From contig NZ_QVMV01000007.1 in the NCBI RefSeq assembly GCF_003417465.1, forward strand, positions 62,001 to 126,000: a stretch of DNA of 64,000 bases. The letters are read 5' to 3'. The stretch comes from Wenzhouxiangella sp. 15190. GTDB lineage: Bacteria; Pseudomonadota; Gammaproteobacteria; Xanthomonadales; Wenzhouxiangellaceae. The position numbers and the translations under genes are program-made. Positions 6,431 to 42,600 of this stretch are shown one piece after another. Numbering within the stretch: the stretch's first letter is position 1; every line of letters begins with the position of its first letter. The notes under the pieces are model-generated. The model was not told the DNA's origin, did no database searches, and saw only the letters and a program-made list of their open reading frames with translations.

Positions 6431-6693
6431 TAAAGCACCAAATTACAAGCACCAATTCTCAAACAAATTCGAATGAACGAAATTCCAATGACCCAAACCG
6501 CAGCGGCGGCCAGAGCATGCGCCTTGCCGCAATCCCGGGCCGGTTGGCCGCCTACCGACCCTGCAGCTGGGCGCCTGCACCTGCCAAAGTGCACAGGTCT
6601 GTCGCATCGGCGCCATGCCCGTTTCGGCCATTTAAAAATTAGGTCATTCGAATTTGTTTGATATTTGGTGCTTGAGATTTGGAATTTTTCAAG
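6431..6693 (-). repeat. MITE-like intergenic element, copy 1
   Basis: This non-coding element fills most of the roughly 400-bp gap between the MAPEG and Nudix genes. Read on the minus strand it begins AGCTTGAAAAATTCCAA (near 6693) and ends in AATTTGGTGCTTTA (near 6431). The two ends are themselves loosely inverted. The GC-rich core includes ATGGCGCCGATGCGACAG. Copy 2 (17134-17355, opposite orientation) shares both ends and part of this core. A 62-codon frame crosses the core here, but copy 2 has a stop codon there, so coding is unlikely. Confidence 0.8.
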
Positions 6694-26593: not shown

Positions 26594-27055
26594 ATGGACC
26601 TGGTGGTCGCCGGTGTGGGCACCCGCATGCCCGCCTGGGTGGCCGACGGTTGGCGGGAATACGCCCGGCGAATGCCGCCCCATCTGCCGCTGCAACTGGT
26701 CGAGGTGCCGGTGGCCGGCAAGGCCGGTGCAGGCCGCGAGTCTTCCCTGGAAGCCGAACGCCTGTTCGGCAAGTTGCCCGAGCGTGTCCGCGTGGTGGTC
26801 CTGGAGATCACGGCGCGACCCTGGTCGACTGAAAAGCTGGCCTCCCGGCTGGAACAATGGCAGCTCGACGGCGATCCGGTCTGGTTCCTGATCGGCGGCG
26901 CCGACGGGCTCCATTCATCGGCGCTCGAACGTGCCGACGAACGCTGGTCACTGGGCCCCGCGACGCTGCCCCACATGCTGGTGCGCGTGTTGGTGGCCGA
27001 GCAGCTATACCGCGCTTCGACGATCCTGAGCGGGCATCCTTACCATCGAGCCTGA
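26594..27055 (+). CDS. rlmH: 23S rRNA pseudouridine-1915 N3-methyltransferase
   Basis: A 153-residue SPOUT-class methyltransferase that modifies pseudouridine 1915 of helix 69. Visible family blocks are VAGVGTRMPAWVADGWREYA at the start, VVLEITARPWSTEKLASRLE, FLIGGADGLHSSAL (SAM-binding knot) and a C-terminal LVRVLVAEQLYRASTILSGH ending in PYHRA. It follows rsfS by three bases, the conserved order. The two long hairpins downstream probably mark the end of this operon. Confidence 0.97.
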   Translation: MDLVVAGVGTRMPAWVADGWREYARRMPPHLPLQLVEVPVAGKAGAGRESSLEAERLFGKLPERVRVVVLEITARPWSTEKLASRLEQWQLDGDPVWFLIGGADGLHSSALERADERWSLGPATLPHMLVRVLVAEQLYRASTILSGHPYHRA

Positions 27056-27093
27056 ACGGGGGCCCTTCACTGGCTGGTTATGGTGGCTCCGAC

Positions 27094-27172
27094 GTCGGCC
27101 CGGCCCGGGATGCTTTGCTTCAGTTCGACGCGGTGGCGAGGCCTTCAGCAAAGCATCCCGGGCCGGGCCGAC
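27094..27172. repeat. Long perfect hairpin A (26-bp stem, 27-nt loop)
   Basis: Arms at 27094-27119 (GTCGGCCCGGCCCGGGATGC, then TTTGCT) and 27147-27172 are perfect reverse complements over 26 bases. The 27-nt loop starts TCAGTTCGACGCGGTGGCGA. This lies in the 314-bp gap between rlmH and maf. The loop of hairpin B (27206-27284) is nearly this loop in reverse complement. It is too large and lacks the T-run expected of a simple terminator. Confidence 0.85.
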
Positions 27173-27205
27173 AGCGAATGGCTGCACACCGGCCGGGGTG
27201 TCGAC

Positions 27206-27284
27206 GTCGCCTTGTTTGGGGAGGCTTCGCTGAGGGCCTCGCCACTGCGTCGAACTGAAGCGAAGCCTCCCCAAACAAGGCGAC
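27206..27284. repeat. Long perfect hairpin B (26-bp stem, 27-nt loop)
   Basis: Arms at 27206-27231 (GTCGCCTTGTTTGGGGAGGC, then TTCGCT) and 27259-27284 pair perfectly over 26 bases. Its loop, read in reverse complement, matches the loop of hairpin A at 25 of 27 positions. The stem agrees with stem A at 17 of 26 positions, and every difference is compensated on the other arm. Between the two hairpins is a small palindrome (CACACCGGCCGGGGTGT), so the pair looks like a head-to-head REP/BIME-like unit. The remaining sequence to maf holds no other recognisable feature. Confidence 0.85.
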
Positions 27285-27369
27285 TGGGGCCCGAAACTTC
27301 GCCGTTTTCTCAGGCCCTACTTGGCCCCCTCTATCGCACAATCTCGCGAACCGAAAAACGAAACAACCA

Positions 27370-27960
27370 ATGAACGAAAGAACGAATATACGAACCCGCC
27401 TCATTCTGGCTTCCGCCTCGCCCCGCCGCCGCGAACTCCTGTCGCTGTTCGAGATCGACTTCGACGTTCAGCCCGCGGATATTGACGAGACAGTGCGTGA
27501 GGGGGAGCCGCCGGAGAATTATGTGCGGCGCATGTCGCGCGAGAAGGCGATGGCGATCCACGGGCAAGTCGACGATTGCTTCGTGCTCGGCTCGGACACT
27601 GCCGTTGTCCTCGATGACGAATGCCTGGGAAAGCCGGGCGATGACGAACAGGCACGCGAAATGCTCGAGCGCCTGTCCGGCCGTGAACATCGCGTGCTTT
27701 CGGCGGTCGCCCTGGCCGCGACGGATGGCGGGATTGATGAACGCTTGAGCGTCACACGGGTCGAATTCGCCCAGCTGCCCGCCGCCTGGATCGATCGCTA
27801 CGTCGCTTCCGGCGAGCCGCACGACAAGGCCGGCGCCTACGGCATCCAGGGGGCGGCCGGCATCTGGGTACGATCGCTTTCGGGCAGCTACACCGGCGTG
27901 GTCGGGTTGCCACTGTTCGAAACCGGCGAACTGTTGCGCGAAGCCCGGCTTGCCGACTGA
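27370..27960 (+). CDS. Maf-family nucleoside triphosphate pyrophosphatase (YhdE type)
   Basis: A 196-residue Maf protein that hydrolyses dTTP/UTP or modified nucleotides to monophosphates. Motifs are LILASASPRRRELL, VLGSDTAVVLDDECLGKPGD and the C-terminal GAYGIQGAAGIWVRSLSGSY followed by TGVVGLPLFET. The last two blocks resemble YhdE more than the m7GTP-specific YceF. The position just before rng, yhdP and tldD is the same as for yhdE in enterobacteria. The ATG is close to the end of the hairpin region. Confidence 0.93.
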   Translation: MNERTNIRTRLILASASPRRRELLSLFEIDFDVQPADIDETVREGEPPENYVRRMSREKAMAIHGQVDDCFVLGSDTAVVLDDECLGKPGDDEQAREMLERLSGREHRVLSAVALAATDGGIDERLSVTRVEFAQLPAAWIDRYVASGEPHDKAGAYGIQGAAGIWVRSLSGSYTGVVGLPLFETGELLREARLAD

Positions 27961-36143: not shown

Positions 36144-36246
36144 AGTCGGTGGTCGGTGGTCGGTTGTCAGTAGTCAGTAGTCAGTAGTCAGTCGAAACGA
36201 CGAAACGACACACAGACCACCGACCACAGACCACAGACCACAGATT
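36144..36246. repeat. Inverted array of GGTCGGT/AGTCAGT units after pmbA
   Basis: The left arm (36144-36193) consists of GGTCGGT and then AGTCAGT units. After a 15-base spacer of GAAACGAC repeats comes a right arm (36209-36246) of CAGACCACC/ACCACAG units, which are imperfect reverse complements. The array fills the convergent gap between pmbA and yceI and can fold into a long imperfect hairpin. Confidence 0.75.
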
Positions 36247-42444: not shown

Positions 42445-42600
42445 TCTACAGATGAACACAGATGAACACAGATTGGGATCCGAGTTCTCGATATTGGGTA
42501 GAGCATCTTTGCATGTTGATGGCTTCAGCCTTGTTCGTGAAAACACAAGCTCCGAAATGACTGCTTCTATCTGTGTTGATCTGTGTTCATCTGTGGACAA
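42445..42600. repeat. Inverted CAGATGAACA element between nuoE and nuoF
   Basis: The left arm (42445-42474) has two CAGATGAACA units plus CAGATT. The right arm (about 42569-42600) carries the reverse complement (TATCTGTGTTGATCTGTGTT, then CATCTGTGG). The 94-base centre is less GC-rich than the genes around it and has no convincing open frame. This is the longest non-coding interruption of the nuo operon. Confidence 0.78.

Follow-up and report, generated by a model that had tools for sequence, protein, structure and literature searches.

The ERIC and NEMIS repeats form RNA hairpins that alter mRNA decay (PMC2229807, PMC10969869). ERIC is small, intergenic and palindromic, resembles a MITE, and acts on neighbouring mRNAs through its RNA fold, an effect that is reported to depend on orientation; NEMIS/Correia of Neisseria is a long-TIR MITE, and RNase III cuts the RNA hairpin that it forms (PMC2229807, PMC10969869). 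CIR exposes a conserved motif in a terminal RNA loop (PMC2229807). REP/BIME repeats are intergenic, lie 3' of genes as inverted dimers and clusters, contain G-T stem pairs and are usually tied to RAYTs that have their own GTAG repeats; TIRtrons, which are RAYTs flanked by long TIRs, are accompanied by TIR repeat families, some of them self-complementary (PMC3733652).

A pair of hairpins in Wenzhouxiangella sp. 15190 shares traits with each of these systems. As in ERIC, the element is a small intergenic MITE-like palindrome; unlike ERIC, which measures 127 bp and has TA termini, it has an unrelated sequence, a 22-bp TIR, an 8-bp TSD and a freely changing stem below a fixed tip. The TA termini and TSD of ERIC and NEMIS were not recovered (8-bp TSD, different TIR). 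In NEMIS/Correia the TIRs themselves form the hairpin that is cut, whereas here an inner stem-loop, apart from the TIRs, is conserved. The conserved tip recalls CIR, which differs in its two arms and GANTC motif; the two were compared by description only, and a sequence relation is not apparent. The hairpins are members of a newly recognised repeat family, MITE-derived palindromic repeats as a kind being already known, and what is unusual in this family is how stem and tip share the work, the stem free to change and the tip fixed.

The hairpin pair between rlmH and maf

The sequence-only reading of the window, that is, of the whole 64-kb stretch of DNA analysed, had described two 79-nt hairpins with perfect 26-bp stems and 27-nt loops, placed after rlmH and before maf. 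This geometry was reproduced exactly, and both genes were confirmed with NCBIfam (Table 1). The two loops are indeed identical at 25 of 27 positions once one is reverse-complemented, a small palindrome, ACACCGGCCGGGGTGT, does lie between the hairpins, and all nine stem differences that had been reported (positions 5, 7, 8, 10, 11, 12, 13, 18 and 23) are compensated. No other perfect arms of at least 20 nt within 60 nt occur in the window. The hairpins have fold stabilities of about -62 to -67 kcal/mol, and their folding z-scores against dinucleotide shuffles were -10.9 and -11.3, with 0 of 200 shuffles as good.

Table 1. Features of the hairpin pair and its surroundings (window positions)
Feature	Position	Strand	Remarks
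rlmH, upstream gene	26594..27055	(+)	NCBIfam NF000986, E 4e-53
Flank of hairpin 1	27085..27092	(-)	GGCTCCGA on (+); counterpart of TCGAAGCC; basis: alignments
Hairpin 1	27094..27172	(-), selected	perfect 26-bp inverted repeat; loop on (-) is GAAGGCCTCGCCACCGCGTCGAACTGA
Hairpin 1 arms	27094-27119/27147-27172		26-nt perfect inverted repeats, 27-nt loop
Hairpin 1 apical module	27120..27146	(-)	27 nt, structured; conserved in loop copies, internal covariation
Spacer between inverted hairpins	27173..27205		33 nt, contains the palindrome
Hairpin 2	27206..27284	(+), selected	perfect 26-bp inverted repeat; loop on (+) is GAGGGCCTCGCCACTGCGTCGAACTGA
Hairpin 2 arms	27206-27231/27259-27284		26-nt perfect inverted repeats, 27-nt loop
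Hairpin 2 apical module	27232..27258	(+)	27 nt, structured
Hairpin 2 tip, tandem G.A/A.G	27232-27233 with 27257-27258	(+)	invariant columns
Hairpin 2 tip, covarying R-Y pair	27234/27256	(+)	
Hairpin 2 tip, mini-stem	27240-27242/27247-27249	(+)	RNA fold agrees
Hairpin 2 tip, apical loop	27243-27246	(+)	
maf, downstream gene	27370..27960	(+)	NCBIfam TIGR00172, E 2e-51

Other copies have the flank sequence TCGAAGCC on the 3' side of the stem, and the intact MITE contains it too. Two simple explanations of the pair were set aside. An intrinsic terminator was rejected because a U-tract is absent, TGGGGCCCGAAACTTCG following hairpin 2 and GTCGGAGCCACC following hairpin 1 on its strand. Guide-like stem arms were rejected after a whole-genome search in which the full arm matched nowhere outside the hairpins and gave only short background hits.

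The window holds other repeats. Positions 6438-6682 contain an AT-rich 47-nt inverted repeat, 85% complementary with 151 nt between its arms, which is possibly another MITE and resembles sequence at a contig end in G008 (L065). Short tandem repeats such as AAGTGTG, GTCGGTG and ACAGATGAAC, with inverted partners, lie at 745-860, 36145-36238 and 42445-42597, apparently in intergenic sequence. Short repeats of the GAAC/GAAA type straddle the intergenic sequence and the beginning of maf (27350-27395), a site at which W. sediminis has a longer GAACGAAT run (L210).

Copies in Wenzhouxiangella and its relatives

Other copies of the 27-nt loop were found both in this genome and in relatives. The window's genome (G000) has seven copies at four loci, namely the inverted pair in the window, inverted pairs on contigs C25 and C24, and a single copy on C26. 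A loop pattern search placed the element in 20 of 30 Wenzhouxiangella genomes and in 0 of 31 others. With a covariance model, copies were detected in 21 of the 30 Wenzhouxiangella genomes and in two of six sampled genomes of one sister genus, and a subfamily with a 26-nt loop was recovered; among 250 genomes sampled across the order, the model found copies in no further genus. Nine Wenzhouxiangella genomes, several of them nearly complete, are without any copy, so the element is not essential.

The plasmids and viral contigs searched gave no match to the element, and none of five loci with the element had an Rfam match that reached the gathering score. The window region gave only sub-threshold Rfam hits, to mir-4659 on both strands, which were taken as a long-hairpin artefact. 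Titles and abstracts of the Wenzhouxiangella papers retrieved by a text search do not mention a repeat of this kind, and the first 14 bases of the TIR were not found in the literature searched.

Stem covariation

In 36 non-redundant copies, 24 of the 26 stem pairs have changed on both sides, and 96.4% of cells are paired compared with 67.9% in shuffles. The covariation score was 0.776 against 0.200 for shuffled alignments, a value reached by 0 of 500 shuffles, and shifting the partner column by one lowered pairing to 46%. Stem length across copies is mostly 22-26 bp.

Hairpins that have no TIRs occur at orthologous places in several species, where the stem changes mostly as matched pairs and the 26/27-nt tip is nearly fixed. 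At the rlmH-maf site, G000 and G003 (W. sediminis XDB06) differ by three compensated pairs with none broken; at gcv-2, G003 and G027 differ by seven compensated pairs, none broken, with no loop change. Across orthologous hairpins up to seven pairs are compensated with none broken, and zero to two of the 27 loop positions change. Some orthologues have decayed or broken stems, as at gcv-1 in G000 and thrS in G010. The earlier proposal that selection acts on the stem itself, made from the two window copies, is borne out by the covariation among the 36 copies and by the compensated changes between orthologues.

The selected strand and the structured tip

The two strands of the stem are not equivalent. 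The strand that reads GAAGGCCTCGCCACCGCGTCGAACTGA in the loop has more G.U pairs than A.C mismatches, 164:22 when all cells are counted and 43:19 with one count per cluster of similar copies (p=0.003); the separately collected copies with a 26-nt loop gave 27:3 (p=8e-6). An excess of G.U over A.C on one strand only indicates that one single strand is under selection. Covariance model R1 scored hairpin 1 at 102.4 bits on (-) and 50 on (+), and hairpin 2 at 97.2 bits on (+) and 47.7 on (-), a preference for the selected strands that follows from R1 having been built on that strand.

Loop conservation was assessed in 129 copies with a 27-nt loop and 36 with a 26-nt loop, the single base between them lying in the apical loop (CACC or CAC). 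At least 159 of the 165 copies have G.A in tip column 2/-2 and A.G in column 3/-3, and these invariant columns would form sheared G.A pairs. Pair 4/-4 is A-U in 132 copies, G-U in 17, G-C in 12 and A-C in 3 (p=3e-8), and pair 10/-11 covaries between C-G and U-A (p=2e-5), both probabilities being uncorrected for shared ancestry. As many copies had been found through the loop, elements defined by their TIRs were counted as a control, and 29 of 32 had a loop within two differences of the consensus; some of these loci had originally been fetched through the loop, so that the control is partly independent. Judged by its alignment, the loop is a conserved folded module and more than a plain loop. 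A one-strand structure with a fixed tip is under selection, also in species that lack the mobility ends.

These features bear on two rival readings of the hairpin. In one, the stems have no function and owe their complementarity mainly to mutation, as template switching corrects quasipalindromes. Perfect arms and rapid stem turnover are what such correction yields; a conserved, internally covarying tip, a one-strand G.U excess and the persistence of broken stems are not predicted by it. Tip conservation and the G.U asymmetry speak against quasipalindrome correction as the sole cause, and we consider this account improbable. In the other, the loop is conserved as the last part of a short coding sequence (...FAEGLATASN-stop), in keeping with a frame common to most 27-nt-loop copies and with several loop variants at third codon positions. 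Here, though, a stop lies two to five codons upstream with no start between in the G022, G029 and G002 copies, the variable positions pair with each other, and the 26-nt loops shift the frame. The frame-shifted subfamily refutes this reading, to which we give scarcely any credence. A coding palindrome of the Rickettsia type (RPE) was rejected on similar grounds, stops and the 26-nt-loop frameshift precluding a frame through the element.

The hairpin as the centre of a MITE in related species

In seven related genomes (G025, G011, G013, G021, G022, G028 and G015) the hairpin forms the centre of a MITE with a modal length of 184 bp and a 22-bp TIR, CCTGATTAGCGTCGTGTCTCAG. For 39 elements the 8-bp flanks match at 61.5% compared with 35.6% in shuffled pairings (z=9.4, 0 of 1000), and the optimum is sharp at 8 bp. 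The element is short, multicopy (at most about 20 copies per genome) and contains no transposase gene, and these observations show the MITE itself in the related species. The 22-bp TIR together with the 8-bp TSD points to a transposase of DDE type.

In G000 the TIR has no match at up to three mismatches, and its copies retain only the hairpin and a TCGAAGCC-like flank. The window copies probably descend from the MITE, a descent that rests on the hairpin and flank they have in common with it. No autonomous element bounded by the same TIRs was seen among the TIR matches of 41 genomes or at L450, draft assemblies being broken at the repeat.

Other families of the order also carry the TIR, or CCTGATTAGCGTCGAGTCTCAG (G049, with 87 hits, G058, G112, G199, G247, G262 and G292). 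In G049, G058, G112, G292 and G247 (L426-L455) a TIR of the form CCTGATTRGCGTCGWGTCTCAG bounds elements that are mostly about 190-300 bp long, with apparent near-8-bp direct repeats judged by eye. Their interiors are different palindromes, of the CTCCCTCCCC...GGGGAGGG type. It seems that one TIR class carries lineage-specific palindromes, and the TIR carrier appears to be older and more widely spread than the hairpin studied here. No transposase bounded by the order-wide TIR ends was found in the genomes searched. A 1.5-kb TIR pair in G049 was rejected as an autonomous transposon because it encloses host-like frames (ProC-like, by eye).

Several other elements were seen. IS110 elements are known to target palindromic repeats, and a frame resembling an IS110-type transposase (by eye) adjoins a MITE end in G049 (L450 310-1266, contig C4). 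A repeat of at least about 430 bp occurs at L363 540-974 (G022:C371) and some 40 other places in G022; it lies inside one MITE and seems to break the assembly. A GGAGCCTCTGAATAACTCTGCGCAGAGTTATTCAGAGGCTCC-type palindrome is spread in the genomes of L356 (G028:C171), L265, L269 and the L243 flanks, and at L356 a related palindrome is inserted into the hairpin loop.

Relation to REP/BIME repeats and RAYTs

The sequence-only reading had likened the pair to REP/BIME repeats while remarking that each unit is longer than usual REPs. The likeness in arrangement stands: the hairpins are intergenic, lie behind genes and form inverted dimers, and one locus in G017 (L410 1037-1811, contig C35) carries seven family hairpins in strictly alternating, BIME-like orientation with a repeat unit of about 230 bp. 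Identity with REPs moved by a RAYT does not. On that account a RAYT (HUH Y1) transposase would act on single-stranded hairpins, and the inverted pairs, the alternating array and one-strand G.T pairs are compatible with it, as is the precedent of TIRtrons (PMC3733652). In G022 a RAYT also has a half-element about 150 bp upstream, an adjacency that was judged incidental. However, the element end has no GTAG/CGTC tag, its flank being TCGAAGCC or variable; the stems measure 22-26 bp rather than the 6-13 bp of described REPs, in a unit of about 79 nt rather than 20-40 bp, which upholds the remark on length; and the 26/27-nt structured tip is a further difference from REPs. The possible RAYT link also failed, in that no Y1_Tnp match was detected in G003 or G011 (the latter 84% complete), both of which have copies, and model R1 found no hairpin at RAYT loci. 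No tyrosine transposase bounded by these TIRs was found in the genomes searched, and the precise 8-bp TSD of the MITE indicates another transposase class from that of TIRtrons. Movement by a RAYT is therefore, in our estimate, a very unlikely origin.

The RAYT genes of G000, G018 and G015 (L388, L390 and L391) and a Y1_Tnp match at L389 have their own, unrelated GTAG-type repeats, which at L390 form a large tandem cluster downstream.

Genomic location

The hairpins are intergenic and mostly 3'-proximal, behind gene ends. Convergent gaps made up 38 of 87 hairpin-bearing gaps compared with 14 of 108 other neighbouring gaps, and divergent gaps 8 of 87 compared with 34 of 108. Where the flanking genes are co-directional, the selected strand was sense 18 times and antisense 22 times, so no orientation bias was evident. 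All these counts are approximate, as genes were called with a simple script based on codon usage, which got rlmH wrong. A simple strand-specific 3'-UTR element would be expected to show an orientation bias, and its absence is the main evidence against a plain element of that kind.

That the element itself sets the selected strand, whichever way the genes beside it run, would also be expected if selection acted on the hairpin as single-stranded DNA, which a protein of the host or of the element would bind or cut in replication or transposition. G.T and G.A pairs stabilise DNA hairpins too, and the mobile, TIR-bearing copies retain the tip. Against a role as DNA, transcribed repeats are likewise enriched behind gene ends and between convergent genes, DDE-type insertion marks require no single-stranded hairpin, and persistence at orthologous sites without TIRs requires a role on the host side. 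We regard selection as single-stranded DNA as rather unlikely.

Discussion

With somewhat better than even confidence, we read the window hairpins as MITE-derived palindromic elements without TIRs whose tip-bearing strand acts as an RNA hairpin. A transposase supplied in trans, most likely of the DDE type that the TIR and TSD suggest, would have spread the MITE; the TIRs would then have been lost and the hairpin kept at orthologous sites, with the selected strand working as RNA. Given the intergenic position behind gene ends, read-through transcripts would carry the hairpin. That it acts as RNA we infer from this location and from the precedent of ERIC and NEMIS. The tip may then serve as a recognition site for a protein or an RNA, and the most likely role would be to control how mRNA 3' ends decay or are processed, in a way like that of those two repeats.

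A bolder extension of the RNA reading, tentative and on the doubtful side, is a dispersed RNA regulon in which a mobile element carried a single folded tip, with its tandem G.A pairs and mini-stem, to many intergenic sites, and a dedicated RNA-binding protein of these bacteria recognises it. The stem would be no more than a handle of arbitrary sequence, and the drift of its sequence under conserved pairing would be explained.

The results suggest that the cell benefits from the folded single strand itself. In this family, evolution has preserved the shape of a single-strand structure that a miniature transposon left behind, with a freely covarying stem and a fixed, folded tip, which makes it a clear natural example of this process. 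The presence of one TIR across the order, around palindromic interiors that differ between lineages, points to a modular carrier for elements of this kind, and the passage from mobile DNA to a host RNA element becomes testable in a genus with cultivated strains.
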